From Candidatus Woesebacteria bacterium (GTDB lineage: Bacteria; Patescibacteriota; Microgenomatia; UBA1406; GWC2-37-13), in NCBI GenBank assembly GCA_020429045.1, contig JAGQLS010000004.1, positions 38,173 through 102,172 of the forward strand: a stretch of DNA of 64,000 nt. Reading direction: 5' to 3'. Numbering within the stretch: position 1 is the stretch's first letter; every line of letters starts with the position of its first letter. The translations under genes were made by a program, and so were the position numbers. The notes beneath the pieces are model-generated. The model saw only the letters and a list, made by a program, of their open reading frames with translations, was not told where the DNA came from and did not search any database. Shown piece by piece: positions 26,439-50,521 of this stretch.

Positions 26439-26468
26439 ACTATACTGAAACCGAGATGCATCTGTCAA
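26439..26468 (-). promoter_or_regulatory. promoter overlapping the upstream stop codon
   Basis: On the minus strand TTGACA (26468-26463), 18-nt spacer, TATAGT (26444-26439), then 4 nt to the ATG at 26434. The TGA stop of the upstream gene lies within TTGACA. Confidence 0.65.
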
Positions 26469-28051
26469 TCTTGTCCAATTCTCTCGCGTAGGAGTGTAAC
26501 GATTATGCGCTTTGATTCTTCACCGCGCGTTTTGTGTATCGCCGAGTCCGTGTATTCGAACATATCCCGTACCGTCCATGCGTGAAACAAGAGTCGGTAC
26601 TGCTCCATTCGCACATATTCTTTTGTTGAGTGTTTTTGTTTCAATATGTCCTGCCACTGCTTAGAAAGGTTTGCGTCCGCTCTATCGAGCCAGCCTCCAT
26701 AGTAAGCAAAATCCCACAAAGGATCGCCAAGCCGCGCCCATTCAAAATCAATCACCCGTTCGAGTGCACAGCCTTTTTTTGTTTCTTTAACAATGATGTT
26801 TCCTGGAGCAAAATCGCCGTGGATAGGAGTGTAGGCATATTGTCCGTGAATTGCATACCGCCTGAGCTTCTTCAACTCTTCCTGGAGAAACGTCACAAGT
26901 CTATCGTCACTGAGCCATTCAGTAAGAAAATGAATAGTGAGATTAATGTTAAGGTGCATAAAATGTTTCCATGATTGGAACACGCTGTCGCCTGGTGGTT
27001 TCCAGAATTGTTTGACTTCCTCAATCGGTAAATCGTGAATCTGATCTGCAAACGTATGTATATTTTTCAGCAATGACCCTTGCTCGTGTGTATGATGAGC
27101 GAAACAGACTTCCTGATCTACACCCGTGGAGAAATCCTGGACGATGATAGGATCGTGGAAAAATAATCCGGTTTGGTCTGCATATACAATACGCGGTGAT
27201 GGCAAATGTTTTGACTGTAAATATGTATGCAGGGAAAGCTGGCGCTGCACTTCTGTATTACTTTTTTCGATCATGTGTTTGAAAAGATAGGTTTCGTTAC
27301 CAAAGTTCAGCTGATACACGTTGTTTTTTGATGCTGTTACGTGCTTTTTGGTTTTTGAATGACGAGAAGAATGAAATATGGCCTGAGCATAAAATTCGGT
27401 TGCTTCCTGTTTTGGATCGATTTTATCAAACGCGGTTTGTTCTTTTGTCCATTGCACGATATTTTTCTTAAGCTTAATGCGTATGACTGCGGCGTTGGGC
27501 ACAATATGTTTGTGAAGAAATTGCAAATAGGCCTTTTCGTTTTCTGCTGGGTTGCCAAATTGTAAACAATAACGAAATGCCCCGATCACAGCCTGATGGG
27601 TAACCAACACAATGGTCTTGCTGTCTGACTGATGCGCAAGGAAATCTTTTGAAGCTTCCCAAATGCGTTGACCAAGCGAGGCCATGCTTTCTCCCCCGCC
27701 AGGATATGCAGAGCGATAGTCTTCTCGTTTTTTTCGCCAGGACGATGGAATCTGGTCGATGACTTCCCACCAGTATTTTCCTTCAAACATACCGTGGTCA
27801 AGTTCGCTGAGCCAATCGGCTTTATGAAAGGAACCACCAAGCAAAGAATGTACTATGCGCGCAGATTCTTGAGCCCGTTTCACCGGGCTGTAATAGATTG
27901 CATCAACGGGTTGATCTTTAAGCTCCCATGCAGATCGTATGATCTGCACTTTTCCTTTTTGCGTCAGACCATCGGGATCTGATCGACCAGAAATGTAGCC
28001 CTGTTTTGTATTGCCGATACTTTCGCCATGGCGCACGATAAATATATTCAT
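26465..28051 (-). CDS. histidine-phosphatase / APH-type kinase fusion protein
   Basis: 528 aa in one open frame. Residues 1-~205 are a histidine phosphatase (phosphoglycerate mutase superfamily): catalytic VRHGES, YYSPVKRAQESA, LDHGMFEGK and the second catalytic histidine in VLVTHQAVIGAF. Residues ~235-528 are an aminoglycoside-phosphotransferase/choline-kinase fold: HGDFAPGNII (Brenner motif) and VIDFEWARLGDPLWDFA, where DFE replaces the usual DFG-like element. One half removes and the other adds a phosphate, so a bifunctional salvage or regulatory enzyme is possible. The substrate is unknown. The promoter at 28058-28086 places the ATG 6 nt after the -10 box. Confidence 0.85.
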   Translation of the reverse strand: MNIFIVRHGESIGNTKQGYISGRSDPDGLTQKGKVQIIRSAWELKDQPVDAIYYSPVKRAQESARIVHSLLGGSFHKADWLSELDHGMFEGKYWWEVIDQIPSSWRKKREDYRSAYPGGGESMASLGQRIWEASKDFLAHQSDSKTIVLVTHQAVIGAFRYCLQFGNPAENEKAYLQFLHKHIVPNAAVIRIKLKKNIVQWTKEQTAFDKIDPKQEATEFYAQAIFHSSRHSKTKKHVTASKNNVYQLNFGNETYLFKHMIEKSNTEVQRQLSLHTYLQSKHLPSPRIVYADQTGLFFHDPIIVQDFSTGVDQEVCFAHHTHEQGSLLKNIHTFADQIHDLPIEEVKQFWKPPGDSVFQSWKHFMHLNINLTIHFLTEWLSDDRLVTFLQEELKKLRRYAIHGQYAYTPIHGDFAPGNIIVKETKKGCALERVIDFEWARLGDPLWDFAYYGGWLDRADANLSKQWQDILKQKHSTKEYVRMEQYRLLFHAWTVRDMFEYTDSAIHKTRGEESKRIIVTLLRERIGQD

Positions 28052-29470: not shown

Positions 29471-29568
29471 CTCTTTCTGCAACATATTGTGTAGGAGAAT
29501 GTGTCTAGAACATATCTGCTGTGCGAAAATGTAGACTTTTTAACAGAGAAACTCTATACTGTGTTCAT

Positions 29569-30240
29569 ATGAAAAAATTCTTCCTTTTTCTGGTACTTTT
29601 TATCTTTGCAACCAACAGGGTGTGGGCTCAAGAAACAACGTTGTTGCTATTCGACTCATCGACTATAAAAACAAGTGTAGGGAATGAATTTTCTCTTACG
29701 ATACAAATGTATTCATTTAATAACAAACTGCCTATACGATCAGCGGACATATGGATTGCCTACGATCCTAGCATTGTGCAGCCCGTTGTTGAGAACGGCG
29801 TCGTAAGTGTAGGATCGGGCGACTTATTCAACGAAATCGGTGGAAAAATCATCAATAATAAACTGTACCTGTTTGGACTCAATGCTGCTTCCCCGAAGAG
29901 TGAAACAATAGGTGCGTTCGGCACAATCAGGTTCAAGGCCCTACAACAAGGCAAAACATCGTTGCGGTTTGTCTGTGAACCCGGGATACAACAAACAACA
30001 CAAATCATCGGACAAAACGACGGATTGAAAAACATCATTAACTGTGCTGGAACAAAAAGTCATACAGCCGATATCGTCATCTCTGGTACAGATGTTTTGG
30101 GAGCGACTGATTCTTTGCACAATAGTATGAGCACCATTTTGATGAGCAGCCTTTTGCTTTTTGTGGGCACTGCAACGGTCGTACTGGTTAAACGTTTCGA
30201 TTTATTCAACCGCGATAATGCAAGTCAAGACATTACTTAA
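29569..30240 (+). CDS. cohesin-domain surface protein with C-terminal membrane anchor
   Basis: 223 aa from MKKFFLFLVLF; TATACT (29555-29560) is 8 nt upstream. An N-terminal signal peptide (cleavage expected after VWA) is followed by a cohesin-like beta-sandwich, ~25-165: FDSSTIKTSVGNEFSLTI, RSADIWIAYDPSIVQPVV, GTIRFKALQQGKTSLRF. A C-terminal membrane helix (~190-210) and a basic tail follow. Cohesins bind dockerins in multiprotein surface complexes. Here the cohesin would be displayed at the cell surface and could dock the dockerin proteins of the 38-46 kb cluster. The 3' end overlaps the next gene by 23 bp. Confidence 0.75.
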   Translation: MKKFFLFLVLFIFATNRVWAQETTLLLFDSSTIKTSVGNEFSLTIQMYSFNNKLPIRSADIWIAYDPSIVQPVVENGVVSVGSGDLFNEIGGKIINNKLYLFGLNAASPKSETIGAFGTIRFKALQQGKTSLRFVCEPGIQQTTQIIGQNDGLKNIINCAGTKSHTADIVISGTDVLGATDSLHNSMSTILMSSLLLFVGTATVVLVKRFDLFNRDNASQDIT

Positions 30241-31702
30241 TAAATCTCTTACCAAAAAACAGCGAACAATCCTTGTCGGATTATCGATTGTGCCGCTTGT
30301 GGGAATTTTGCTCTATCTTTCGCTGAACGTGTTACAAACCTCGACGAGCGCAAACCAGGACCAGCCACAAAATATTACGAGCTCTGTAATTGGTACAACG
30401 GCGCAGATAACATGGACAACCCAAGATCAAACCGTGGCTATTGTCGAATATGGCACGAGCCAAGATCCTACTTCTTTTCAAGATTTTGCCATCTCAGAGG
30501 TACCCTCCAGCGAACACTCCGTCGACATTCCAAACCTCGAGCCCAACACGACCTACTATTATCGTATGAAAATAAATGACACATACTATGACAACGACGG
30601 ACTGTTTTGGTCTTTCACCACCGAAAGCTCACAGGACAGCACGACATCTGACGAGACGATAACGGGCGACACATCGCTTACCCCGACAGCAGAAACTACT
30701 CCCGCTACAACTCCTTCTGCAACGCCTGCTGTGGTCTTCTCTCCCTCACCTACGCTAAATCCGCAAGAAACGCCCACTGCCTCAGACTCAGCAACGCCAA
30801 CGCCTGTGAATATTTGCGATCAGAATGATTGTACTGCGATCAAAAATGCGCTTGGCAACCCGTGCGATACTCAAGACTATATCCAATGTCTCAACAAAGA
30901 CTTGGTCTCTGTAACACCTACGACTGAGACAACGACAACCCCAACTCCTACTGTCGACTACATCTCTGCCACTACCAAACTCATGTGCGATCTCGATTAT
31001 GTTCAGCCAAACACATGCACTTCGTGGGGATGGCCGGCTATGTCTACTATCAACAAAACCTGTTCGGATACGTTCACTGAGTATTTTGTTCAGTGTAAAT
31101 CCAGTAGCTTCGAGTCGAATGATGCAGCAACATGGTTTTGTAACGAACGTATGTCATCCAACGAACTCAGCCTGCCCTGTGGAGACGCTCCTTCTCCATT
31201 CCCGGGGCAAGCGGTCTTTTGTAGAGTACGAGCAGAAAACGAGACCGGCGGCGAGGCGAACGCCACTGGTTGGACAACATACAACACAACCTGTGCAAAT
31301 TTAAATACCAATATTTCTGCGTGCCTTCCGTCGTTCTTGCAGGCAAACACATGTCGGTCGTTTTTGTGGGACTTGGTACCAACAAAAAATCCTACCTGTT
31401 CGCAAGCATTTTCCCATTATTTTTTACAATGTACAAACAATAATGATTTTACTGGCGCAACAGGCACGTGGTTTTGTAATACAACGACAACAGATAATTA
31501 TCTCGATCTCCCTTGTCAAAATGCCCCGACACCTGCAGATGGCGGTGATATTTATTGTCGTGTACGCGCCGAAGATGCCTATGGTACGGACAATCATTCG
31601 ACCGACTGGGTAACGGTCAATGCTACTTGCCCGACTTCGACCCCGACACCCACGTATTCTCCAACGCCGACTCCTACCAATACGCCTTCTCCAACGCCAT
31701 AA
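30218..31702 (+). CDS. anchored Fn3 protein with two copies of an 8-cysteine domain
   Basis: 494 aa from MQVKTLLNKSL, overlapping the cohesin gene. A membrane anchor at ~20-38 is followed by an Fn3-like domain (~48-135; AQITWTTQDQTVAIVEYG, NTTYYYRMKIN) and a Thr/Pro/Ser linker. Two tandem ~105-residue repeats occupy ~245-475, each with eight cysteines in the same order: C..NTC..C..QC..WFC..LPC..(F/Y)CRVRAE..C. The chain ends in a Thr/Pro tail without a further domain. The repeat is not one I recognise. Role: likely a surface binding protein working with the adjacent cohesin. Confidence 0.75.
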   Translation: MQVKTLLNKSLTKKQRTILVGLSIVPLVGILLYLSLNVLQTSTSANQDQPQNITSSVIGTTAQITWTTQDQTVAIVEYGTSQDPTSFQDFAISEVPSSEHSVDIPNLEPNTTYYYRMKINDTYYDNDGLFWSFTTESSQDSTTSDETITGDTSLTPTAETTPATTPSATPAVVFSPSPTLNPQETPTASDSATPTPVNICDQNDCTAIKNALGNPCDTQDYIQCLNKDLVSVTPTTETTTTPTPTVDYISATTKLMCDLDYVQPNTCTSWGWPAMSTINKTCSDTFTEYFVQCKSSSFESNDAATWFCNERMSSNELSLPCGDAPSPFPGQAVFCRVRAENETGGEANATGWTTYNTTCANLNTNISACLPSFLQANTCRSFLWDLVPTKNPTCSQAFSHYFLQCTNNNDFTGATGTWFCNTTTTDNYLDLPCQNAPTPADGGDIYCRVRAEDAYGTDNHSTDWVTVNATCPTSTPTPTYSPTPTPTNTPSPTP

Positions 31703-37981: not shown

Positions 37982-38010
37982 TTGATAGCACGGGGTATTT
38001 TTGCTACTAT
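37982..38010 (+). promoter_or_regulatory. promoter of the dockerin/propeller gene, leaderless type
   Basis: TTGATA (37982-37987), 17-nt spacer, TACTAT (38005-38010), then 5 nt to ATG 38016. It lies inside the 5' extension frame of tgt, supporting the shorter tgt start. Confidence 0.6.
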
Positions 38011-38015
38011 GGAGT

Positions 38016-39452
38016 ATGCCTATGCCGTGGAAAAAAATTCTTTCTTCTATCTCTGTCTCCTTGTTTACCTTTGCTCTTTTTTTCATTCAAATGAATCAAC
38101 CGGTGATGCAAAGTGAAAAAAATGTTCTGGGTGTGCAGGCTCAAGAAGGGTGTGCCTTGAAGTCGAAAGGAGATGCCAACTGCGATGGTCAGATATCGAA
38201 TATCGATTTTGAAATATGGCGTCAGGAATTTTTAAAGATTGTCAATACGACTAATGCCAATTTCAATTTTGAAGATGATGACATCGTTTCTCTGCTTGAT
38301 TATGAAATTTGGCGAGAACAGTATCTTGCTTCACCAATATACGATTGTGGGGAAAATTGTGCTCCCTTGACCATTGAAGGAGATGAGGAAGCCACATTGC
38401 CCGGTGGAAGACCAAGCTTTTTCCGAGGCTTTGCAGACCCTTCAATGCGCAAAGATCCACTATCTGATCGGTTGTGGCTTGGCTATTCGTGGCCCAACAT
38501 CCATGTTGTAAATAACAGTACGTTGATCCCGGGGATTGATACACACCTGGCCTATAGCGACGATAATGGCGCCCATTGGCAATTTTCTGGCACTCTATTC
38601 CCATCATATCCTGATACCAATCCTTTGACTGGTGCAACAGGATACACCGTAAATGAAGTGGTAAATCTTCTTCCTGTTGAAAAAAATGGACAGGCAACAT
38701 GGTACGCTGTCCACCTGACATATTTTATCCCGCAAGAAGGGGGTCTGCTTGAAAGACCGATTCAAAGTTTCAGAATGGAAATTACACGGGCCGCTTCTCC
38801 GCCAGAACTTGCCGATAGCCCTGCTGCAACGCTCGGTGCGCAGAAAACAGCGCAAGAATGGGGTGTGGATATATATTTATCGGATCTTTCCCCGGAAGTT
38901 GCAGACTGTAAATTATGGAATGAGCCAGCATTGTATTATGAAAACGACACGCTCTATACTTTAATGCGCTGTTTGCGATTTACTCAACAGGGCAAACCGG
39001 ATACAAAACATAGTAACCAAGTAGTCTTTGCAACCGATGCACAGGGTGATATTAAAAGTTGGAACTGGCGATATGTTGGCTCATTTGCAGGTGAACAAGC
39101 TGCCACAGAACTCGGCGGAGAAGGACTGACGCAGCTTGATATTGTTAAAAGTAAACACGGCGATCTGCTTGCAATTATGACCCCAGACACTTGGAGTACA
39201 GACTTAAATGAGTTTATCCATTACGGTTGCCGTGTGGTAAAACTTGACTCTATCGATCCTCCTGTTCTGTCGAGAAATCAACAGGGGCAGCTGGATCTTG
39301 TTGCAAATATTCTTGCAACCGACCTTGACGAGATTGGTCCCGCTGCCTGTACCTATGATCCAAATTCCGTAAACGGAATCATTATGACCAGAAGAATGAA
39401 AAATGCACAAGGGTTATCAGCAAGTCTCCATCAAACCTATATCAAACCGTAA
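38016..39452 (+). CDS. secreted protein with N-terminal dockerin and sialidase-like beta-propeller
   Basis: 478 aa. A signal peptide/anchor (~5-25) is followed by a dockerin at ~45-105 with two calcium loops: GDANCDGQISNIDFEIWRQE and FNFEDDDIVSLLDYEIWREQY. The remaining ~370 residues are beta-rich and look like a five- or six-bladed propeller with an Asp-box-like element (AYSDDNGAHW) and several paired cysteines; sialidase/exo-glycosidase-like folds are the best comparison, but catalysis is unproven. It is the first gene of the dockerin/cohesin cluster. Its dockerin matches those at 39523 and 40067 (the IWR type). Confidence 0.75.
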   Translation: MPMPWKKILSSISVSLFTFALFFIQMNQPVMQSEKNVLGVQAQEGCALKSKGDANCDGQISNIDFEIWRQEFLKIVNTTNANFNFEDDDIVSLLDYEIWREQYLASPIYDCGENCAPLTIEGDEEATLPGGRPSFFRGFADPSMRKDPLSDRLWLGYSWPNIHVVNNSTLIPGIDTHLAYSDDNGAHWQFSGTLFPSYPDTNPLTGATGYTVNEVVNLLPVEKNGQATWYAVHLTYFIPQEGGLLERPIQSFRMEITRAASPPELADSPAATLGAQKTAQEWGVDIYLSDLSPEVADCKLWNEPALYYENDTLYTLMRCLRFTQQGKPDTKHSNQVVFATDAQGDIKSWNWRYVGSFAGEQAATELGGEGLTQLDIVKSKHGDLLAIMTPDTWSTDLNEFIHYGCRVVKLDSIDPPVLSRNQQGQLDLVANILATDLDEIGPAACTYDPNSVNGIIMTRRMKNAQGLSASLHQTYIKP

Positions 39453-39484
39453 TTGAAATGGCTTCCTTGAATTGCATATCTATC

Positions 39485-39513
39485 TTGATCAGCGTGATAA
39501 TTCTTGATACTAT
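39485..39513 (+). promoter_or_regulatory. promoter of the 39523 dockerin gene
   Basis: TTGATC (39485-39490), 17-nt spacer, TACTAT (39508-39513), then 9 nt to the ATG. The cluster genes thus have individual promoters rather than one operon promoter. Confidence 0.55.
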
Positions 39514-39522
39514 GAATGATAT

Positions 39523-40050
39523 ATGTCTCATCATAAAATCCTCATGATCGTCTCTCTTATCGCGATACCTCTTTCGACATTTCTTTTTATTAAATATTTG
39601 CAAAGTGCGCACCCTCCCCTCGCCCGGGCGCAAGTACTTGGAGAATCTGATGCAAATGTATGTGCCGGCAAGGATCAAGGCGATGCCGATTGCGATGGCG
39701 ATGTTGACGCGCTTGACTACACTATCTGGCGATCTGAATTTTTGGATCAATCGGTTCAAGAAAAACGCGCTGATTTTAATGGCGATGCTGTGGTTGATGA
39801 ATTTGATTTTGAAACATGGCGCAGCACGTTTGCCAATCAACCAAGCGTGCCAACAATTGACCCAACAACATTTCCGGCTCTTAGCCCAACACTTTCTCCT
39901 CCTTCCTCGACAACGTTTGATAAAACACTGTGTCCGCCAAATGGTATTGTCGACTGTACAATCCCACAACCCGGCATAGCGCTTTGTACTGAAGGATTTA
40001 TTAAATGGGCACAAGATAACTGTGACAATTTCATCGGAGCAGCGTATTGA
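39523..40050 (+). CDS. secreted dockerin protein with C-terminal 'GAAY' domain
   Basis: 175 aa. An anchor/signal (~7-26) is followed by a dockerin at ~45-105 (CAGKDQGDADCDGDVDALD and DFNGDAVVDEFDFETWRS), a Pro/Ser/Thr linker and a C-terminal cysteine domain LCPPNGIVDCTIPQPG...CTEGFIKWAQDNCDNFIGAAY (partial) ending at the stop. The last part matches the small protein at 32398. It is probably an adaptor: the dockerin binds a cohesin, the GAAY end binds something else. Confidence 0.75.
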   Translation: MSHHKILMIVSLIAIPLSTFLFIKYLQSAHPPLARAQVLGESDANVCAGKDQGDADCDGDVDALDYTIWRSEFLDQSVQEKRADFNGDAVVDEFDFETWRSTFANQPSVPTIDPTTFPALSPTLSPPSSTTFDKTLCPPNGIVDCTIPQPGIALCTEGFIKWAQDNCDNFIGAAY

Positions 40051-40066
40051 TTGTATAAATAATAAC

Positions 40067-41521
40067 ATGGAAAAATCGACACCTATCATACGAATGGCTA
40101 TAATAGCGCTTGTCGGCGTAGGTCTAACTGTGGGGTTGGCATATTTTTTCTATTCCAACAGCCAACGCAGTGGCGCTTCGAGTTCAAGTACTAATGTTTC
40201 TTTTAATGTGAATCATATTTCTTCTCAAGCAGGTAGAGATATCAATATCCTTTTGTTTACCGATACGTCGCAAGATGCGCACGTCTCGATAGGCACGGGT
40301 CAAATAAGTTTCCCGCAGGAGCTCGTGACGTTTAAATCGTTGGTGGGCGGAGGGTGCGGCGGCATCATAAACGGCAATTTGCAGCTTGGCGAGCTTAATA
40401 ATACAGTGCAAGCAAAAGTGCTTGGGGGAAATACGCTGCTTTTCACTCGACACAAAATTGCATCAGATAATGAGCTTCCACAAGGGCGGGTCTGTGTTGG
40501 TACTTTGACATTTACCGTGAAACCGGATGTGCAAGGGAAAGGAACAATTGCGTTGACCAATCGACCAAAATGGCTTATCCTCGGACCTCAAGGGCAACTC
40601 GAAGTGAATTTCGACACAAATTACAATAGCGTTCAAGTTGAGATTCAAAACGATACTTCGCTGACTGGTACGCCTGTGCCGCAACCTTCGACATCGACTC
40701 CTACTCCTTCTTCTTCAACGAGCGTCACGCCAATACCGCCATCCGTTACCCCTACTATTCCCGCTGATCACTATCGTGTTTTTGTGACAAGTCAAACCTA
40801 TGATGGAAACTTGGGTGGACTTGAAGGAGCAGATGAAAAATGTCAAACACTTGCAAATAATGCAGGGCTTGGAACGCCGAACACTTCTTTCAAAGCATGG
40901 CTGAGCGATAATACACATGATGCTATAGACAGGATAGGAGTCAATGTGTCAAAACCATACACATTGGTTGATGGAACACTGGTTGCCAGTGATATACAGG
41001 ATTTGGTGACAGATAATGGCGATGAGAACTATTTACATAATACAATAAATATTGATGAAAACGGTACGACGATTACTGATATTGGTTATGCCTTTACCGG
41101 ATCCTCAGAAAATGGAACGCTATACGGACCCAACAGAACCTGTGATGATTGGCTGTCAAACAATAATGAAAATATGGGGCGCGCCGGATTAGCACCCAAA
41201 ACAAAAGCTTCTTGGACCAGTTTTTTTAGTCAAAAATGTTACATAACTCAGCATCTCTACTGTTTCGAAACAGACACTCCAGTCTCTACACCCACGCCAA
41301 CGAGTATAAATCCGAGCCCGACCGAAACACCAACTCCTGGAGACGAGTGCCCACGCAAGAGCGAAGGAGACGCCAATTGCGACGGACAGATAACGCTCCT
41401 CGACTTTGACCGCTGGCGCCAAGAATATTTGGGCGAACTCAACACAACAACTGCTGATTTTAACGCTAGTAGCGATGTCACGCTCATAGATTATGAAATT
41501 TGGCGATCGCACAGAGAATAA
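40067..41521 (+). CDS. anchored cohesin - DUF1554 - dockerin protein
   Basis: 484 aa from MEKSTPIIRMA; TATAAA lies just upstream. A membrane helix (~8-27) is followed by the juxtamembrane YFFYSNSQRSGAS, a cohesin-like domain (~38-185), a Pro/Thr linker, a DUF1554 lectin-like domain (~230-405: VFVTSQTYDGNLGGLEGADEKC ... HLYCFE, in part), a second Thr/Pro linker and a C-terminal IWR-type dockerin (KSEGDANCDGQITLLDFDRW; LIDYEIWRSH). A cohesin and a dockerin on one chain would allow head-to-tail assembly. DUF1554 is known from Leptospira surface proteins and related to C-type-lectin/endostatin folds. Confidence 0.8.
   Translation: MEKSTPIIRMAIIALVGVGLTVGLAYFFYSNSQRSGASSSSTNVSFNVNHISSQAGRDINILLFTDTSQDAHVSIGTGQISFPQELVTFKSLVGGGCGGIINGNLQLGELNNTVQAKVLGGNTLLFTRHKIASDNELPQGRVCVGTLTFTVKPDVQGKGTIALTNRPKWLILGPQGQLEVNFDTNYNSVQVEIQNDTSLTGTPVPQPSTSTPTPSSSTSVTPIPPSVTPTIPADHYRVFVTSQTYDGNLGGLEGADEKCQTLANNAGLGTPNTSFKAWLSDNTHDAIDRIGVNVSKPYTLVDGTLVASDIQDLVTDNGDENYLHNTINIDENGTTITDIGYAFTGSSENGTLYGPNRTCDDWLSNNNENMGRAGLAPKTKASWTSFFSQKCYITQHLYCFETDTPVSTPTPTSINPSPTETPTPGDECPRKSEGDANCDGQITLLDFDRWRQEYLGELNTTTADFNASSDVTLIDYEIWRSHRE
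40799..40873 (+). repeat. 75-bp exact repeat, copy 1
   Basis: Identical over 75 bp to 42204-42278. It encodes the start of the DUF1554 domain in two neighbouring paralogues, while the flanking codons differ. Recent duplication or gene conversion is the simplest explanation. Confidence 0.85.
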
Positions 41522-41546
41522 TATTCGTTATACTTAAATTCATCCC

Positions 41547-43835
41547 ATGAAGATACAAGACATTTTGCAAAACAATGCTACTCTCAGAAGAGCAGTACTT
41601 GCTCTTGTTGCTGTCGTCACGATGGGCTTGATCGTAGTGTTTTTTTATCAATATAGTCAGCGCTCAAGCGCCAGCAATCCTCCCGTCTATATCCAATTTT
41701 TGCATGCTGAAGATCTTGTAATCGCCCCGGGCGGCAATGAAGCAAACGTTTCTGTGTACCTCAATTCTGGCACGGAGAAAGTTTCTGCTGGGCACATCAT
41801 TATGAATTATCCGAGCGACCTTGTTTCATTTTCTCACATATCGCTTGCTGACTGTGATACTCTTGGAGGACAAAATACCAATGTTTTTGTGAATGATAAT
41901 GAAACGGGTAGACTCGAATTTGATGTACTTTTTTCCCGCAGCAACGACCAACTCCCGAGCGGTCAATTTTGTTTTGCCAACGTTTTCTTTGCTTCAGGCG
42001 ACATTCAGAGTTCAGATAATCTTTCCTTTGCCCCGGCAACAGATAGTGCTTGGGATATTGTCGGACCAGGTCCAGACTTGCAAGGGATACAGTTTGAGCC
42101 AAACCTCGGCATTCCTTCTGAGCGGACAATTGTAATAAGCGATAGTCAGCCAACGATCACGCCACCTACAGATCACTATCGTGTCTTTGTAAGTAGTGAA
42201 ACATATGATGGAAACTTGGGTGGACTTGAAGGAGCAGATGAAAAATGTCAAACACTTGCAAATAATGCAGGGCTTGGATCTGGTGATCGGAAGTTTCGTG
42301 CATGGCTCAGTGATAGTACGCATGATGCAATAGACAGAATTGGAGTCAATGTTTCAAAACCATATAAGCTCGCGGATGGAACATTGGTTGCAAACGATAT
42401 ACAGGATTTGGTGACAGATAATGGCGATGGAAATTATTTACGTTTTAGTATTTCGAGAAATGAAGATGGGCAAAACCAGAGCGGTGCATATGTTGCAACC
42501 GGAACAAAAAAAGATGGTACGTTGTATGACCCATACATCACATGTGTTGATTGGACCTCTAATAATAACACTGACATAGAATCAACGGGAGGAACTGATT
42601 ATCAGGGTGTTCACTGGACAATGAGAAGCACTTTCTTGTGTTCCCACTCCAATCATCTCTATTGTTTTGAAACAGATAAACAAGCCGTCATTACTCCCTC
42701 GCCTACGACACCGACGCCAACGAGTATAAATCCGAGTCCGACCCAAACTCCCATCCCTACCCCCACTGGTGGAGGTTGTACCCCGGGTCAACCGGAAATA
42801 AACCTCATCAATCCAGAAGATAATGCGTATGAAAATGGAAATATCGTCTACCTTACCATAGGACAAATAAAATATAAAACATGTAATGAAACTCGGTCTA
42901 GAGATATATCTTTTCGAAATAATACAACAGGTGATGAATTTGGAAGATTATGTTGGTTTACACCGAGCGGAGATGAAGATGAAGCAACTTGTGCTATTGA
43001 CCAAAACGATTTAATACTAGGCGACACATATCAATGGAAAGCAAAAGCTATAAATGAATCGCTTTCAACTGAAACTGAAACAAGAACGTTTATATACGAT
43101 AACCCTCCTATTTCGCCAACAAACACGCCAACCAAAACACCAACGCCAACCAAAACACCAACGCCAACCACGACAAAAACTCCCACACCGACAAAAACCA
43201 AAACACCAACGCCAACACGCACTCCTACTCCGACAAATACGGGCCCTTCGCCCACCAAAACTCCTACCAATACACCTCCTCCCGGACCAAACGATATAAA
43301 CATCACCTTTGCGTTGAAGCTACAAGGAGTCACGGGTATACCCAGGACGACAACCACGCTCCCCATCAAAGTCGCTATTGGTCAAGACAGCAACACCATT
43401 GACAGCAGGACTATAACATTTACTGTTGGAGAAGAAGGTGTGTGGACCGCAACCAGCTCGTACAACAACCTCGCTACAGGAAGCACCTACTCAGTACTTT
43501 TCAAAGGTCCCTATCATTTGCAGAAAAAAGTGTGCGATAGCAACCCATCTGAATCTTCCCCAGGGGCATATTCATGTTCGTTTGGCGCCATCACGCTTGC
43601 GGCTGGAGACAACTCTATAAACGCCAGCGGTGTCACTATGTTCGTAGGCGATCTGCCAGCACAAGACGGTGTGGTTGACTCACGCGATATCGTCCTGGTT
43701 AGAAACAACTTTGGGAGCACAGCGGCAGATGTACTTGCCCAAGCCGATCTCAACTTCGATGGTATTGTTGACACACAAGACTATTCACTCATCTTGAATG
43801 CACTTTCCTTCAAATACGATCAAGGACTAAACTAA
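41547..43835 (+). CDS. anchored cohesin - DUF1554 - Fn3-like - X/dockerin protein
   Basis: 762 aa. TATACT (41529-41534) precedes the ATG by 12 nt. Order: anchor (~13-33) with FFYQYSQRSSAS, a cohesin-like domain (~40-190), DUF1554 (~205-375; DHYRVFVSSETYDGNLGG), a Thr/Pro linker, an Fn3-like domain (~410-520), a long TPT/KTPTPT linker (~522-590), a beta-sandwich 'X' module (~592-700; LKLQGVTGIP, GVWTATSSY, YHLQKKVCD) and a terminal dockerin (~700-762; DLPAQDGVVDSRDIVLVRNN, LNFDGIVDTQDY). This dockerin differs from the IWR type. It is the largest scaffold-like protein of the cluster. Confidence 0.8.
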   Translation: MKIQDILQNNATLRRAVLALVAVVTMGLIVVFFYQYSQRSSASNPPVYIQFLHAEDLVIAPGGNEANVSVYLNSGTEKVSAGHIIMNYPSDLVSFSHISLADCDTLGGQNTNVFVNDNETGRLEFDVLFSRSNDQLPSGQFCFANVFFASGDIQSSDNLSFAPATDSAWDIVGPGPDLQGIQFEPNLGIPSERTIVISDSQPTITPPTDHYRVFVSSETYDGNLGGLEGADEKCQTLANNAGLGSGDRKFRAWLSDSTHDAIDRIGVNVSKPYKLADGTLVANDIQDLVTDNGDGNYLRFSISRNEDGQNQSGAYVATGTKKDGTLYDPYITCVDWTSNNNTDIESTGGTDYQGVHWTMRSTFLCSHSNHLYCFETDKQAVITPSPTTPTPTSINPSPTQTPIPTPTGGGCTPGQPEINLINPEDNAYENGNIVYLTIGQIKYKTCNETRSRDISFRNNTTGDEFGRLCWFTPSGDEDEATCAIDQNDLILGDTYQWKAKAINESLSTETETRTFIYDNPPISPTNTPTKTPTPTKTPTPTTTKTPTPTKTKTPTPTRTPTPTNTGPSPTKTPTNTPPPGPNDINITFALKLQGVTGIPRTTTTLPIKVAIGQDSNTIDSRTITFTVGEEGVWTATSSYNNLATGSTYSVLFKGPYHLQKKVCDSNPSESSPGAYSCSFGAITLAAGDNSINASGVTMFVGDLPAQDGVVDSRDIVLVRNNFGSTAADVLAQADLNFDGIVDTQDYSLILNALSFKYDQGLN
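42204..42278 (+). repeat. 75-bp exact repeat, copy 2
   Basis: Exact copy of 40799-40873, within the DUF1554 coding part of the 41547 gene. Further shared stretches around GATATACAGGATTTGGTGAC occur downstream in both genes. Confidence 0.85.
43117..43250 (+). repeat. tandem repeat coding a Thr/Pro/Lys linker
   Basis: Degenerate copies of a 12-18 nt unit (ACACCAACGCCAACCAAA-like) encode repeated KTPTPT. This is a normal extended linker between modules, prone to length change. Confidence 0.75.
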
Positions 43836-43893
43836 GCGCGTTCTACACGATTACTTCCTAAAATGCTACAAAACGTTGTACAATAAAATTATC

Positions 43894-45741
43894 ATGGGCT
43901 CGTATGTGAATATGAAAAAAATACTTCGTGCAGGATTGCTTAACAAACTTTTCTCTATTCTCCTTATCTTGGTCGTTATTGGAATTATTGGCTATTTTTT
44001 TTACCAAAACAGTGTTCGCTCTCGAGCCGATAATCCTACAGTTGGCGTACAGATCGAGCCCGCAGAAGGAATAGATTTCACAACAAATGGGCCCGAAAAG
44101 GAAACCTATATATATCTTAACTCTGGAGAAAATAAAATTTCAGGGGCTACTATCATTTTACAATACCCCAACACGCTCGTTGACTATAGCGATATTTCTC
44201 TTGAGAATTGTGACGAAATGAATGGAGAAAATACAAACACGTTTCTTAACACTAACGAAAACGGTAGGCTCGTTTTTACGGTACTATTTCAACGGCCAGA
44301 AGAAGAGTTGCCATCTGGTTCGCTATTTTGTTTAGCAAAACTGTTTTTCAAACCAGGGGCAAACCTTGGCTCTGACCTCATTAAACTTGCTCCGGAAGAT
44401 GACCCTGAGTGGGAAATTGTAGGCCCTGGTCCAGATGGATCTGCAATTCAATTCACGCCTCAACGACAGTTTCCTAACTTCATCTCAATGCGTATCAACA
44501 AACCAATCGAATACAAACATCGTGTTTTTGTTTCCAGCACCAAACATAAAGGTAATTTTGGTTCACTCATACAAGCGAATAATTATTGTCAGAATTTAGC
44601 TAATAATGCAGGACTGGAAGGAACATATAAAGCCTGGCTCAGCACTGGACAAAAAAATGCCGTGGACAATATCAGGCCATCAATCGATACAGGATATATT
44701 ACAAAAGACAGCGGTGGAACAAAACATACAATCGCAGAAAATCTTTCTGATTTAATCGATGGTGATCTAAAAGATCGCATACAATACGACGAAAATGGCG
44801 ACATAGTGATAGACGGTGTATGGACCGGCACCAACCAAGACGGAACATGGTCTGGAAATGATTGTAATAATTGGAAGGGTGCTTTCATTTCTGACCAAGC
44901 CATGTCTGGAAAATCGAATTATTCGTCTCGCATATGGACAGAATATCAAAATCAGATTTGTGACCAAAGTTTCCACGTGTATTGTTTCAATACCGAATTT
45001 TCTCCAGACATAACAATAACACCAACACAGTCTCCTACCCCAACAGCTGGACAACCACCACCAACTAAAACGCCTACACCGACAAACGCTGGCCCAACGC
45101 CTACAAAGACGCCGGGTCCTACGAAAACTCCAACGCCTTCTGGACCGACAATCTCTCCACAGCCGACACAACAGATTACTCCCCCACAAGATGAACACGT
45201 TGCGGTGACCTACAAACTGCACTTGCAGGGCATAAGCAAAACGCCCAAACGAACATCCGAAGTAGCAGTCCAAATCACGCTCCTTGACGATCAAAATAAC
45301 ACGATTGAAACACGAACAGAAAATTTCATCTTCCAAGACAATGGTGTGTGGACAGCAAGTGTGGACTATACGTCACTCGATCTTGCAGGTCAGACTGTTT
45401 CTATATTATTAAAGCCTGGATTCCATTTGCAACGACACATTTGTGATAATACACCCAGAGAAAACCTTCCCGGTTCATATCAATGTTCTACCCCTGCCAT
45501 TATCTTAAATGCAGGGGGGAATACAATCGATACTTCGGGTGTCGAAATGCTTGCCGGTGATTTGCCCCCGCAAGACGGACTCATTAATTCACAAGACTTG
45601 GTGTATGTACGAAATAATTTGGGGAGCACGAGCCCAGAGGTGATTGCCAAAGCGGATGTCAACTTTGATGGTATTGTCGATGCGCAAGACTATGGTTTGA
45701 TTCTCTACGCGCTGGGTTTCAAATTTGATGAAGGATTTTAA
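43894..45741 (+). CDS. anchored cohesin - DUF1554 - X/dockerin protein
   Basis: 615 aa from MGSYVNMKK; TACAAT (43879-43884) lies 9 nt upstream, and the TTG-initiated longer frame overlaps it. Order: anchor (~14-34) with YFFYQNSVRSRAD, a cohesin-like domain (~42-190), DUF1554 (~205-370; HRVFVSSTKHKGNFGSL to HVYCFN), a Thr/Pro linker (~375-435), an X module (~440-555; YKLHLQGISKTP, GVWTASVDY, FHLQRHICD) and a terminal dockerin (DLPPQDGLINSQDLVYVRNN, VNFDGIVDAQDYGLIL). The X-dockerin end matches the 41547 protein closely, defining the second dockerin type. Confidence 0.8.
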   Translation: MGSYVNMKKILRAGLLNKLFSILLILVVIGIIGYFFYQNSVRSRADNPTVGVQIEPAEGIDFTTNGPEKETYIYLNSGENKISGATIILQYPNTLVDYSDISLENCDEMNGENTNTFLNTNENGRLVFTVLFQRPEEELPSGSLFCLAKLFFKPGANLGSDLIKLAPEDDPEWEIVGPGPDGSAIQFTPQRQFPNFISMRINKPIEYKHRVFVSSTKHKGNFGSLIQANNYCQNLANNAGLEGTYKAWLSTGQKNAVDNIRPSIDTGYITKDSGGTKHTIAENLSDLIDGDLKDRIQYDENGDIVIDGVWTGTNQDGTWSGNDCNNWKGAFISDQAMSGKSNYSSRIWTEYQNQICDQSFHVYCFNTEFSPDITITPTQSPTPTAGQPPPTKTPTPTNAGPTPTKTPGPTKTPTPSGPTISPQPTQQITPPQDEHVAVTYKLHLQGISKTPKRTSEVAVQITLLDDQNNTIETRTENFIFQDNGVWTASVDYTSLDLAGQTVSILLKPGFHLQRHICDNTPRENLPGSYQCSTPAIILNAGGNTIDTSGVEMLAGDLPPQDGLINSQDLVYVRNNLGSTSPEVIAKADVNFDGIVDAQDYGLILYALGFKFDEGF

Positions 45742-45779: not shown

Positions 45780-47582
45780 CTACAATTTTGTAAAGGTGAT
45801 TTCTTGAGGCGAAAGCCTAAATAGCCCTTCGTCTTTTCTTCTTTGATCAAGATAATGCGCAGTAAATCCTACACTTCTCCCCAACACGAACAACGCGTTG
45901 AAAAATTCAATATCAATAAGCTCTTGAAGATCTTTCGGAGAATACTGTTCTTCCTGCTCGAGAAGATCAAGTAAAACCCCGGCAATCGCACCGTCAACGT
46001 TAAGGATGAGATTCCCCTTTTTCTCGGTAGTAATTTTCTCGACTGCCAAAGCAAAATCAATAAAACGATGATGCGATAATATGGTTGCATAGGCAATGAT
46101 CGGTTTCACGCGCGGGTCAGGATTATCGCTTCTATATTTTCTATGACCTATGCCTGCTATGCGTTTACCCTGCCTGGCCAGCGACTCAACATACTCATCG
46201 GGCGTAGTATCAGTGATCGTGCCCGTGAGCCAGTGTTGTGCCGCTTGGTTGAGTGCACCACCAAAACGTGGACCAATGGTTAAAAGCCCACTTGAGAGGG
46301 ATGAAACAAGGTCTTTGCCCGCTCGTGCTGCTACCATGGTATTCACCGCGCCAGAAACATAAGGTCCATGATCGACAACTAATTTAAGGACAAATTCTGT
46401 GAAGTTCCCTAATGGTTTTGAAGTGATTCGTTTTCCCAAAAGCATCGACATAACAATGTTTCCGTATGAATACGATTGAGCTTGTTTGAGGAGTTCCGAT
46501 CCTACGATTTCAACCGAGCCTCCGACATCGCGCGACACAGAATTTACAAAAAGCGACGCCTTTCTACCTTCTATAACCTTCAGTCTCGATTCTGATTCTG
46601 TATTTTTTTTTGATGAGGATTTTCTTGTAATCATTGTTTCTACTAATTGCGTAAATGTGCTGAATGATGTCGTGGCGTGTACTCCTACAGCTTTCAAAGC
46701 TTTTGTCTTGGCAAGAGCCGTCTCCTCTCCGCGGGCGGCCATTGCTTTTGCATGGCCAAACTGCGGCGGTGTTGCAAACATTTCAGCTACTGTTCCTCCA
46801 ATATAGCAAATAATCGGTTTTGTGATGTCTCCTTTTTTTATGTGCTCAATGAGTTCGTATTCATCATACCCTCCCAGTTCGCCAAAATAGACTATGTGTT
46901 TGGTCTCTTTATCTTTCTCTGCTGCCAAAAAACCATCAAGAGGGGAAAATGCAGGGAATCTATCGCCACCAAATGAGACAGCAAAAGAAAGGTGTATGCC
47001 CACGTTTGCAAGCGAACGAATGAGTTCGTTTGTCATACCCCCAGACGACGAGAAAACAGCCGTCTCTCCTTTTTCAAACAACTGAGAAGCAACCAACTGT
47101 CGAGCCTGCACACCGGCTATAGCCCCCAGTTTAAGCCGTTGAGGGACGAGTATACCTATTGAGGCCGGACCAATAATGGTACTGTTGTTTTCTTGCGAAA
47201 GGTTGATGAGTTGCTGTGCGTGAGCTTCCGGTACGTTTTCTGCAAAAATAACGCTAACCAGCAGATTGGGCAAACGATCGATCGCCTCTTGAGTAGAAGC
47301 AAGCACCCGGCGGGCAGAACGGGTATTGATGATAAAGTTTGTGTTTTTTGATATATCACCAGGTAACTTTGAAAGCTGATTAAAAACAGGAATAAGCACC
47401 TCGTCTTTTCCAAAGAATAATTTAACATATTTGGTGCCTGTAGAGATGATGGCTTTAAGACTCGGTTCTGTATAGCCTGCAAGAAATTCAAAATCGAGCA
47501 TGGACTGCATAATCCCCTTGTGAGAACCGATTGCAATGGCATCGTGTTTGCGGGTGGTGCGTAGTGTTTGGATATCTAACAT
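45780..47582 (-). CDS. aclA: ATP-citrate lyase, alpha/citrate-synthase-domain subunit
   Basis: 600 aa, matching the ~600-residue large subunit of two-subunit ATP-citrate lyases. Residues ~1-320 are succinyl-CoA-synthetase-alpha-like, with the phosphohistidine loop QFGHAKAMAARGEETALAK (His ~277; GHAGA in most homologues). Residues ~345-600 are the citrate-synthase-like lyase domain: VVDHGPYVSGA (His ~405), LLTIGPRFGGAL, GIGHRKYRSDNPDPRVK (His ~480), NLILNVDGAIAGVLLDLL. With AclB it cleaves citrate with ATP and CoA into acetyl-CoA and oxaloacetate. The gene begins 7 nt after aclB. No other TCA gene is visible in the window. Confidence 0.9.
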   Translation of the reverse strand: MLDIQTLRTTRKHDAIAIGSHKGIMQSMLDFEFLAGYTEPSLKAIISTGTKYVKLFFGKDEVLIPVFNQLSKLPGDISKNTNFIINTRSARRVLASTQEAIDRLPNLLVSVIFAENVPEAHAQQLINLSQENNSTIIGPASIGILVPQRLKLGAIAGVQARQLVASQLFEKGETAVFSSSGGMTNELIRSLANVGIHLSFAVSFGGDRFPAFSPLDGFLAAEKDKETKHIVYFGELGGYDEYELIEHIKKGDITKPIICYIGGTVAEMFATPPQFGHAKAMAARGEETALAKTKALKAVGVHATTSFSTFTQLVETMITRKSSSKKNTESESRLKVIEGRKASLFVNSVSRDVGGSVEIVGSELLKQAQSYSYGNIVMSMLLGKRITSKPLGNFTEFVLKLVVDHGPYVSGAVNTMVAARAGKDLVSSLSSGLLTIGPRFGGALNQAAQHWLTGTITDTTPDEYVESLARQGKRIAGIGHRKYRSDNPDPRVKPIIAYATILSHHRFIDFALAVEKITTEKKGNLILNVDGAIAGVLLDLLEQEEQYSPKDLQELIDIEFFNALFVLGRSVGFTAHYLDQRRKDEGLFRLSPQEITFTKL

Positions 47583-47589
47583 GAATAAA

Positions 47590-48792
47590 TTATGATTGAT
47601 TGATAACGCGCTTGACTATTTCATTAAGCGGGATCTCTGGACCCGAAACTACGCCCAACATGTCATTTTTACTAAGCCATTCTTTCATGATGGATAATCC
47701 TTCTGCTTCGTGCGGTCCACCTCGCCTTACAAACACGCGTGTTTGGTGTTTCTTCATTTGAGTTTTTTGCTCTTCAAACGCCTTAGCTATGCCTCTGAAT
47801 GTTGTTCGCACATCGGTGAAATTTGCAACTCCACCGCCGATGAGTATGCGAATCTTTTTTTGATTACTTTTGAATGCAAGGTTCAAAAGTTGTTTTGTGT
47901 ATAAATACGTTTCTTCTTCGTTTGGGTTGCCCGAATACTCTCCATAATTGCCGAGCTCTTTGCCATGGCCAAGGTTATAAAATTCGTCGGCAATAGTCAA
48001 ACTTGCGCCGCCGCCGCTCAAAAGCAGCCATATCGTACCCCTAGGGTTGAGAAGTGTTAAAGAAAGTGCCGCCTGACTTTGGTCATTTAACTGTTGAACT
48101 ACCTGTTCTTCTTCTGAAGATTGCGTGTGTGAAGCAATGTCTTCATTTGACCATGCGTTGCGCGCGAAAAATCGGGCTGTGCTATCGACCTCGATGGCAA
48201 GATCTAGTATGTGTAATTTTCCATCAATGAGAACAAAAGGATTAACTTCTAAGAATGAACAATAATAATCGGTAAAGAAATCATGGAGATGCCTAATAAT
48301 TTCTTCTTGAATGCCCAATGCTGCAGCGATAGTATGAAGTTCTTTGTCATACAACGATTTGTCTTTTGAACGATTCGTGACGATGGGGAGAATTGATTCC
48401 TGCATCGTGTTTGCCTTGTCTTCGACGTGTATGCCACCGTGTCGTGAATAAAGAATGCGAAAGCCCGTTCGAATTCTTTCGATAGAAAGATACCGTTCCT
48501 GTTCAGGGTTATAGATTATTTGAGGCTCTACAATAATCCGACCATATCCTTTCTCATGAAACTTTTTATATATTCCTGCTATATTTTTTGCTTCGACCTG
48601 CAATACAACAAGACCCTTTTTCATCCGTCCCTTCACGCCTTGATCTACTTTAACCACATACTTTTTATCTGCAGATAGTCTTTTTGCAAATGGTATGGAT
48701 GCATCGTCAAAACTATAGCCTTCGTATTGTATCTTTAACGAAGTAAATAATAATTTTTTTGCTTTGTATTCGGTTAGTTTAACGCGCGCCAT
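47590..48792 (-). CDS. aclB: ATP-citrate lyase, beta (ATP-grasp) subunit
   Basis: 400 aa, the usual small-subunit size. The N-terminal ATP-grasp half has KKYVVKVDQGVKGRMKKGLV and the metal-binding SFLEVNPFVLIDGK. The C-terminal SCS-beta-like half has LLLSGGGASLTIAD, ELGNYGEYSGNPNEEETY, ILIGGGVANFTDVRTTFRGI and VFVRRGGPHEAEGL, which align well with the ACLY N-terminal region. It phosphorylates the AclA histidine and forms citryl-phosphate. The start is well defined (MARVKLTEYKAKKLL). It is the first gene of an aclB-aclA pair. Confidence 0.9.
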   Translation of the reverse strand: MARVKLTEYKAKKLLFTSLKIQYEGYSFDDASIPFAKRLSADKKYVVKVDQGVKGRMKKGLVVLQVEAKNIAGIYKKFHEKGYGRIIVEPQIIYNPEQERYLSIERIRTGFRILYSRHGGIHVEDKANTMQESILPIVTNRSKDKSLYDKELHTIAAALGIQEEIIRHLHDFFTDYYCSFLEVNPFVLIDGKLHILDLAIEVDSTARFFARNAWSNEDIASHTQSSEEEQVVQQLNDQSQAALSLTLLNPRGTIWLLLSGGGASLTIADEFYNLGHGKELGNYGEYSGNPNEEETYLYTKQLLNLAFKSNQKKIRILIGGGVANFTDVRTTFRGIAKAFEEQKTQMKKHQTRVFVRRGGPHEAEGLSIMKEWLSKNDMLGVVSGPEIPLNEIVKRVINQS

Positions 48793-48826: not shown

Positions 48827-50521
48827 TTACATTATACTAATCAAATACCACAATGTTGGATGCGCAATAAAGGTTGTTACGTCAGAAAATGTAAATTTCC
48901 CGTCACTATCAAAGTCAAACGGCAACAGCGGGGCGAAAGTGATTGTGTTTTCGTCTTTTTGAAAGGTAGTATATAATTGCCTGGGCAAATAGTAGGGTGC
49001 CAGAATTACTATGCGGTATTGTTCATCCAAAGCTATATTCTCTATTGAGTCTATCGTGCCTACCCCATTTTTAAGCTGTAAAGCGTCACTTGAAAAAACC
49101 AGTTGTTCGTATTTATCAAATACTTGTATTTCGATGTTTTCGTTTTCAAACTTCAATTTTGGAAATAGCCATGCATTAAATGTGAGTGACGGCAGGGGAA
49201 CGATATCAACATTCCAATTGCCGCTGCGAACTACTTCTTTATCATTTTTAACAAGGGAAAACGAAATATCCTGTAGTTGTTCTGTTACGCCTGTTGAAAA
49301 ATATACATCAAATATACGTTTTTGGCTTGGTTCAGTATATATAAATGAAGACGACAAATATTGATTTTTGTTGACATTATTCATACGCAAAAAATATCCT
49401 TCCTCGTCTGACCAAATTGCCTGACCCGTGTTTGTAAGATCAATCTGAAAATGATAGGTTGATTTAGCAGTGATTTCGTGAGGAAGGTCAAAAGTAAACG
49501 TACCGGTATCTATTATTTGAGGCTCACCAACAGTCTTTTTCAATGATTGTACTTTGACATATTCTGGGTGCACTCCCCCATTGCCTTGTGTAATCCATGA
49601 GAAGCCCAAAAATGGCTCGGATTGGTAATTTAATACGAATGGGGTTACTGCAACAATCCGATCGTCGGGTAACCACACTAAATCAAATGCGGTGCGTAAA
49701 TAATCTGCAGCACGTTCTCTTCCTACTTTGTCTCCACGCCACCCGGTTTCTGTAATAAATACCGGTAATTTCTTTGTTATTCCAAGGCTTTGCAAAAGAC
49801 TAAGCTCCCATTCATAGGTGCGAATGGTCCCCCGACCGCTGGCCAACGGGGAGCCGACAAATCCTGGGTTTGGATACGAATGTGAAGCGAGCCCATCAAT
49901 GTTTGCATTAACATTATCAACGCCGATTTCTGTAACAATTTTCCGCATATATACCGCTTCGTCTTCGAAATGTGGAAGATCTGACGGGGCAGAAGCATCG
50001 AGCCCTGCAAACATTATGAAATAGTCTGGATTTGATTGTTTGAATGCTTGGGCAAACGCAAGAGCAACATGAGCGTAATCTGTCGCATCGACTTCGCCGC
50101 CCCATTCCGTTGCATGGTTTGGCTCGTTAAAAAGGACGATATATCGATCTTTTATAACCCAATTGAGACTGTTTAAGAAAGTAAGCCAACTATCTATATC
50201 TTCTTCTTTTGGTCGTTTCCAATTTTCCCCTTCACCGTGTGTAGCTAAACGGATTATAGGAATAAGGTGTTCTCTCCTCAGTTGGTCAAACACCTCCTGC
50301 CATTTTTTGGCATTGAGGTCATTATCTTGCATAACCAGGGTCACGTAGCCCCATTTCCCCCCATTTGAATTGACCAACTCTGAGGCTCGTTTTATGTCTT
50401 CCTCCGAAGGCTGTGCGAGGTGAATGCCGAATTTATTATTGAGATTCTGCGCAAAAGTCCGGGAAGGATTGAATAAAATTATGAACCCGATGATACAAAA
50501 AAGAGTAATGTTCCGTAACAT
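48827..50521 (-). CDS. secreted glycoside-hydrolase-like TIM-barrel protein with terminal half-dockerin
   Basis: 564 aa. A signal peptide (~1-24, ending TFAQ) is followed by a clan-A-like (beta/alpha)8 barrel at ~28-330 with two candidate catalytic glutamates, in YIVLFNEPNH (E ~133) and VFITETGWRG (E ~258). Beta-sandwich sequence follows (~340-530). The C-terminal end has a single calcium-loop motif (DFDSDGKFTFSDVTTF), resembling half a dockerin. It is likely an extracellular glycosidase or glycan-binding protein. The exact GH family is not assigned, and the half-dockerin might tie it to the cohesins of the nearby cluster. Confidence 0.7.
   Translation of the reverse strand: MLRNITLFCIIGFIILFNPSRTFAQNLNNKFGIHLAQPSEEDIKRASELVNSNGGKWGYVTLVMQDNDLNAKKWQEVFDQLRREHLIPIIRLATHGEGENWKRPKEEDIDSWLTFLNSLNWVIKDRYIVLFNEPNHATEWGGEVDATDYAHVALAFAQAFKQSNPDYFIMFAGLDASAPSDLPHFEDEAVYMRKIVTEIGVDNVNANIDGLASHSYPNPGFVGSPLASGRGTIRTYEWELSLLQSLGITKKLPVFITETGWRGDKVGRERAADYLRTAFDLVWLPDDRIVAVTPFVLNYQSEPFLGFSWITQGNGGVHPEYVKVQSLKKTVGEPQIIDTGTFTFDLPHEITAKSTYHFQIDLTNTGQAIWSDEEGYFLRMNNVNKNQYLSSSFIYTEPSQKRIFDVYFSTGVTEQLQDISFSLVKNDKEVVRSGNWNVDIVPLPSLTFNAWLFPKLKFENENIEIQVFDKYEQLVFSSDALQLKNGVGTIDSIENIALDEQYRIVILAPYYLPRQLYTTFQKDENTITFAPLLPFDFDSDGKFTFSDVTTFIAHPTLWYLISIM

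Follow-up and report, generated by a model that had tools for sequence, protein, structure and literature searches.

Genes A to E, five consecutive open reading frames on the plus strand of the window (the whole stretch of 64,000 nucleotides that was analysed), probably encode the dockerin side of a two-level surface cohesin-dockerin system that is conserved in the Roizmanbacteria family. It draws on the identities and predicted folds of the domains, the order of the genes, the LPxTG motifs, the sortases and the distribution among genomes. At the first level, the exported adhesin or scaffold proteins D and E would plug their C-terminal X-module-dockerin dyads (XDocs) into single cohesins anchored at the cell surface, where these sockets would be fixed by a sortase. 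At the second level, C, D and E would use their internal cohesins to receive the symmetric 'WR'-type dockerins that A, B and C carry, with the DUF1554 domains facing outward and binding a polymer, a host cell or some other surface. For this clamp we infer an adhesive function, a surface location, calcium dependence, binding and the partners named here. A more tentative, though serious, possibility is that the clamp, consisting of a pair of sortase-anchored type-II-like cohesins and the XDoc, is constant throughout the family, whereas its heads (DUF1554, LamG-like, peptidase or beta-helix) are swapped from species to species to match the cell or surface to which each attaches.

Little appears to be known of how Microgenomates fasten themselves to surfaces or to other cells. 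The docking parts of cellulosomes may serve surface attachment rather than cellulose digestion in this ultra-small uncultured bacterium, and if this is true, the family possesses a cohesin-dockerin system that is mainly used for attaching cells and not for digesting fibres. The XDoc dyad of cellulosomes is found here beyond the cellulose degraders in which it was characterised. A constant clamp beside variable heads makes up a defined set of parts that is testable with recombinant proteins, and if the clamp binds, protein assembly would gain a further orthogonal pair of cohesin and dockerin.

The dockerin gene cluster

The genome containing the window is a single MAG of 1.19 Mb in 58 contigs, 95% complete. 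The five genes of the cluster and the domains of their products are as follows.

38001..39452, plus strand: gene A (ATG 38016), N-terminal export segment, then a symmetric 'WR'-type dockerin (about 38166-38327) and a C-terminal region of ~370 residues with a single Asp-box-like motif (SDDNGAHW)
39523..40050, plus strand: gene B, export segment, symmetric 'WR'-type dockerin (about 39679-39813), linker and a short Cys-containing tail
40022..41521, plus strand: gene C (ATG 40067), putative anchor segment, cohesin-like domain (40166-40696), DUF1554 (40793-41194), Pro/Thr linker and a C-terminal 'WR'-type dockerin (41363-41515) without X module
41547..43835, plus strand: gene D, putative anchor segment (41592-41648), cohesin-like domain (41661-42173), DUF1554 (42198-42575), a further uncharacterised region, Pro/Thr linker and X-module-dockerin dyad (43302-43832)
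43876..45741, plus strand: gene E, putative anchor segment (43948-44004), cohesin-like domain (44014-44511), DUF1554 (44539-44919), Pro/Thr linker and X-module-dockerin dyad (45205-45738)

An earlier note on this DNA had described five consecutive plus-strand genes for exported proteins, and these are present, each with a dockerin match and an N-terminal hydrophobic segment in line with predicted export. The dockerin domains proposed there are real: Dockerin_1 (PF00404) scored above its Pfam cut-off of 22.9 bits in B (29.6 bits), D (27.6 bits) and E (30.2 bits), and the matches of C (17.0 bits) and A (13.9 bits), which fell below it, were recovered with a profile made from the dockerins of the family (A 1.4e-14, C 6.1e-10, D 4.4e-22, E 3.3e-21; these scores cover four proteins, B being masked by an overlapping ORF). 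The second calcium loops in the dockerins of A and C appear degenerate by eye. A search of the whole genome found exactly five dockerins, all of them in A to E, so that their clustering is far from chance. A surface complex, as had been suggested, would be the most economical reading of the cluster.

The order anchor, cohesin, DUF1554, linker, dockerin that the same note had given for three of the proteins holds in C, D and E, but the X module of D and E had been overlooked, as had the family-wide gene row, the orthologous sockets on another contig of the genome and the probable anchoring by sortases described below. The 'propeller' assigned to A is unproven, as its C-terminal region holds only the one Asp-box-like motif and gave neither a Pfam nor a PDB match. 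An enzyme could also reside in this region. The 'Cys-rich end' of B is a Cys-containing tail of ~45 residues.

Pfam Cohesin (PF00963) did not match C, D or E. Their N-terminal domains were nevertheless aligned to a family cohesin profile by HHalign (probability 84.7, E 6.7e-6), and when a profile of 18 such N-terminal domains was searched against the PDB, the significant matches were cohesins, among them 5lxv_A (the ScaC cohesin, 2.4e-5) and 4uyp_A (0.00099). An AlphaFold2 model of the N-terminal domain of E (pLDDT 85.6) gave only cohesins among the best-ranked Foldseek matches listed, and VIA-align scored it against cohesins with Z up to 15.9 across 138 residues, a predicted structural match of the kind that the earlier note had anticipated for its beta domains. 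Since the HHalign comparison, the PDB profile search and the fold comparison agree, the N-terminal domain of C, D and E is, by profile and predicted fold, a member of the cohesin family that the Pfam model misses.

The C-termini of D and E (the last 177 and 178 residues, respectively) are, judged by their modelled fold, type II cellulosomal-like XDocs, matched along the full dyad. In cellulosomes, the XDoc joins a scaffold to the anchoring cohesin at the cell surface. As with the cohesin, the modelled XDoc was taken from protein E (AlphaFold2, pLDDT 86.7). In VIA-align it matched 4u3s_B and 4wi0_B with Z 12.9 (143 residues aligned to 4u3s_B, rmsd 3.0), the CipA dyads with Z 12.3-12.6 and 5k39_B with Z 11.6, and Z falls to 6.2 for the closest unrelated fold. 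Foldseek alone gave no dockerin among the best 50 matches listed for this model. Profile searches with the XDoc matched dockerins and the dyads 2b59, 4u3s and 5k39, which supports the dockerin half. D matched the family XDoc profile with E 4.9e-74, its own sequence being included in that profile.

The DUF1554 modules (PF07588) named in the earlier note scored above the curated cut-off of 27.5 bits in C (31.3 bits) and E (29.7 bits) and slightly below it in D (27.0 bits). DUF1554 is an endostatin/C-type-lectin-like domain with binding roles in surface proteins of Leptospira. It is rare, occurring in the genome of the window and two others among 380, and matches in plasmids cover no more than 26-33%, with an identity of about 30-35%. 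It would be a lineage-specific binding head. The starts of the DUF1554 modules of C and D, as read from the sequences, are near-identical, whereas the cohesin-like domains beside them are far more diverged, suggesting that the head was probably copied from gene to gene. In relatives, the heads of XDoc proteins look by eye LamG-like, M4-peptidase-like, beta-helix-like or Cys-rich.

Anchored cohesins and the conserved gene row

Fifty family loci with an XDoc were retrieved. In 46 of these the gene of the XDoc protein is followed, on a single strand, by an N-anchored cohesin (~200 residues, N-terminal anchor) and a C-anchored cohesin (~215 residues, signal segment and C-terminal transmembrane segment), and a fibronectin-III membrane protein comes next in nearly all rows where the contig extends. 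A conserved cluster in related CPR genomes, as the earlier note had envisaged, therefore exists as a fixed row of XDoc and two cohesins; we found no description of this row in the open-licence literature. All 49 C-anchored cohesins examined carry LPx[TSA]G followed by a transmembrane segment at the C-terminus. Furthermore, sortases are encoded in all 72 family genomes, with four in the genome of the window.

In the genome of the window, the same row was identified on another contig, C5 (L072:11934-14403). Here it lacks the XDoc gene, which means that the XDoc genes of this genome sit apart, in the A to E cluster. The genes concerned, together with further genes of the window, are:

Contig C5, L072:12639-13298: C-anchored cohesin with an LPESG tail
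Window, 29521..30240, plus strand: stand-alone cohesin (likely ATG 29569; domain about 29653-29991)
Window, 30161..31702, plus strand: membrane protein with a fibronectin-III domain and Cys-containing repeats, adjoining the 29569 cohesin
Window, 48827..50521, minus strand: glycosidase-like protein with one EF-like loop at the C-terminus

The C5 cohesin combines a single cohesin domain, an LPxTG-type motif and a transmembrane segment with the presence of sortases in the genome, the features of ScaE-like anchoring. The candidate sockets for D and E would be this LPESG-tailed protein, the N-anchored cohesin of C5 and perhaps the cohesin at 29569. The latter, pointed out in the earlier note as a cell-surface cohesin, proved real (29.7 bits with Pfam Cohesin); it has a signal segment and a C-terminal transmembrane segment and falls in the C-terminally anchored clade, and an LPxTG motif is absent from it. 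Genes resembling 30161 also come after the two cohesins on contig C5 and in the loci of relatives. The glycosidase-like protein at 48827, which had been thought to join the complex by a 'half-dockerin', has only one such loop, degenerate in its orthologs, and hence no dockerin. Its gene, which 65 of the 72 family genomes possess, lies outside the dockerin system.

Of 26 XDoc proteins or related scaffolds, 25 have the motif [KR]x[KRSGLA]A or [ST]xA no more than ~20 residues after their hydrophobic segment, and the Ala of this motif is the sole invariant column of an alignment whose sequences had been trimmed at the motif, favouring its alignment. Should the Ala motif be a processing site, which is conceivable, retention at the cell would depend on the XDoc clamp. 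The N-terminal hydrophobic stretch may also be an uncleaved anchor in C, D and E, and the socket would then perhaps not be needed for staying on the cell.

The relatives with names belong to Candidatus Roizmanbacteria, Microgenomates. The XDoc profile has matches in 58 of 72 family genomes (38 of the 44 of good quality). In a phylum-wide sample of 380 genomes it matched two, both of them family members. Of the 57 XDoc genomes that were tabulated, 48 have a Pfam cohesin gene no more than 3 kb away from the XDoc. A contig with an XDoc assigned to 'Melioribacter roseus' (L116) probably reflects binning contamination rather than transfer. In the phylum sample, cohesins occur in 104 and dockerins in 120 of the 380 genomes; counted over the 378 other genomes of the phylum, they are found together in 56 (odds ratio 4.2, p 4.5e-9, a statistic that ignores kinship).

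Partners and competing explanations

A tree of the cohesin domains resolved three classes, N-anchored, C-anchored and internal. The C-anchored cohesins have a mean identity of 46%, against 16% for the internal cohesins, the fastest-evolving class, and the dockerin of the XDoc has 57% against ~30% for other dockerins, a figure that takes in three XDoc dockerins. Searched against the PDB at E 0.001, the profile of the LPxTG-tailed cohesins matched only 3l8q_A and 4u3s_A, which are type II cohesins. 4u3s_A, for which the best matching stretch is short, is the cohesin partner of 4u3s_B, the best match of the D and E XDoc. From the conservation classes and the type II matches we infer that the XDoc would pair with the anchored cohesins, and the internal cohesins with the 'WR'-type dockerins found in A, B and C. 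Correlated evolution between the LPxTG-tailed cohesin and the XDoc dockerin gave a partial r of 0.64 at 11 loci, falling to 0.16 (p 0.09) at 32 loci and 0.07 at 46, where the pair of XDoc and socket was not singled out; as the first value was not reproduced with more loci, this analysis is not used as evidence. Against the clamp it also counts that plugs and sockets lie on separate contigs in this genome, that the first calcium loop of the D and E dockerins bears an insertion, that C, D and E may have an anchor of their own and that DUF1554 is rare in relatives.

The XDoc and the cohesin-like domains might instead act as stalks and calcium-stabilised caps within single membrane proteins and not pair with each other. 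Non-cellulosomal cohesins and dockerins are widespread, with cohesins but no dockerin in 46 and dockerins but no cohesin in 62 of the 378 other phylum genomes, and the proteins have a hydrophobic N-terminal segment of their own. This explanation is nevertheless unlikely considering that XDoc and two cohesin genes are fixed neighbours in 46 of 50 loci, that all dockerins of the genome lie in one cluster, that the complete dyad resembles type II XDocs and that cohesins and dockerins co-occur significantly across the phylum. Less probable still are polymers or rings, in which the cohesin of C, D or E would hold the dockerin of a neighbouring copy. Head-to-tail assembly had been raised in the earlier note because a cohesin-like domain and a dockerin occur together on one chain, as they do in C, D and E. 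The XDoc chains of relatives are frequently without an internal cohesin, and at two loci (L078 and L079) the XDoc is found on chains with an N-terminal M4-type peptidase or unrelated repeats, which shows that polymerisation is not the conserved role. The low identity of the internal cohesins (16%) beside that of the XDoc dockerin (57%) also argues against a partnership, so that we regard this explanation as very improbable. Chain C could still pair with itself.

A minimal polysaccharide-degrading cellulosome, with dockerin-bearing enzymes collected on a scaffold, likewise seems quite doubtful. It would agree with expressed cohesin and dockerin genes of Microgenomates that were interpreted as a cellulosome in a passage of one report (PMC9123182), and with dockerins of relatives that by eye are carried by apparent enzymes, M4-like peptidase and beta-helix-like. 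The description 'cellulosome-like' in the earlier note does not fit this genome, since its five dockerin proteins bear no recognised glycoside hydrolase or carbohydrate-binding module. Models of glycoside hydrolases, lyases and esterases had no match in them, and the genome encodes no multi-cohesin scaffoldin with a carbohydrate-binding module, the maximum being one cohesin per chain. The constant clamp with its changing head, as in ScaE-CttA, and the lack of a recognised hydrolase on the dockerin proteins lead us to favour adhesion or display over digestion for the two-level system.

Relation to known systems

It has been shown that in Ruminococcus flavefaciens the XDoc protein CttA, which fastens the cell to its substrate, is held by the sortase-anchored cohesin of ScaE (PMC5301203, PMC4266597). 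The clamp proposed here would act as ScaE-CttA and ScaE-ScaB do. Shared with both are a single cohesin with a C-terminal LPxTG-type sortase motif, a partner with a C-terminal XDoc and an N-terminal binding head, and clustered genes. The head is DUF1554 here, and others in relatives, whereas R. flavefaciens has cellulose-binding modules; an extra, N-terminally anchored cohesin is present, no cellulases were found, and the sequence similarity is remote, the R. flavefaciens XDoc being absent among the fold matches listed. The likeness along the whole dyad (Z 12.3-12.9) is to CipA/SdbA and ScaA/ScaB of Clostridium thermocellum and Acetivibrio cellulolyticus (2b59, 3kcp, 4u3s, 4wi0), and the PDB matches of the LPxTG-tailed cohesin profile are type II cohesins as well. 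Identity to these systems is only 14-20%, and their multi-cohesin scaffoldin is absent here.

The endostatin-like proteins LenA, LenB and LenF of Leptospira (NCBIfam NF047482, NF047483) have DUF1554 in common with C (1.2e-5). The match is weak though significant; it reaches 24.8 bits against cut-offs of 300 bits, and both architecture and bacteria differ, so that the fold family alone is common to them.

Within the same supergroup, expressed cohesin and dockerin genes of Candidatus Shapirobacterales (Microgenomates) were termed a cellulosome in one sentence (PMC9123182). The domain kinds are the same as here, and the passage concerned makes no mention of gene order, an XDoc dyad, anchoring or family-wide conservation. 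An essential dockerin protein has furthermore been reported from a Saccharibacterium (PMC10633639).

Fibronectin-III membrane protein beside the cohesin pair

The C-anchored, LPxTG-tailed cohesin of the Roizmanbacteria gene row is followed by a fibronectin-III membrane protein in nearly all loci from relatives (L074-L091, L144-L175). The distances of this membrane protein show their strongest correlation with the C-anchored cohesin (partial r 0.48), and it may constitute a third component alongside the cohesin pair.

Dockerins and DUF1554 on other proteins

An M4-type metallopeptidase with propeptide and visible HExxH motif is fused to the X-module-dockerin dyad (XDoc) at L078:8208-10631 and L089:5874-8273, a possible surface-docked protease. 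Another dockerin protein (L075:10846-12273) has an N-terminal start resembling a Hint (self-processing) domain. DUF1554, the proposed binding head, was also observed in a second genome of the order, where it is carried by a pilin-like protein whose gene adjoins those for type IV pilus assembly (L073:7473-8873). A Roizmanbacteria-type XDoc was located on a contig labelled Melioribacter roseus (L116), which is probably misbinned.

Window genes outside the dockerin cluster

26465-28051, minus strand: histidine phosphatase domain fused to an APH-type phosphotransferase domain, from domain content
45780-48792, minus strand: candidate two-subunit ATP-citrate lyase, two genes side by side, from domain content
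48827-50521, minus strand: glycosidase-like protein, C-terminal end a single EF-like loop preceded by an X-module-like stretch

The glycosidase-like protein was without match in searches against Pfam and PDB; it is found in 65 of the 72 family genomes. Judged by their domains (citrate synthase/CoA-ligase in one, ATP-grasp with a citrate-binding domain in the other), the paired genes appear to encode the two subunits of an ATP-citrate lyase, an enzyme not expected in a genome of so small a size.
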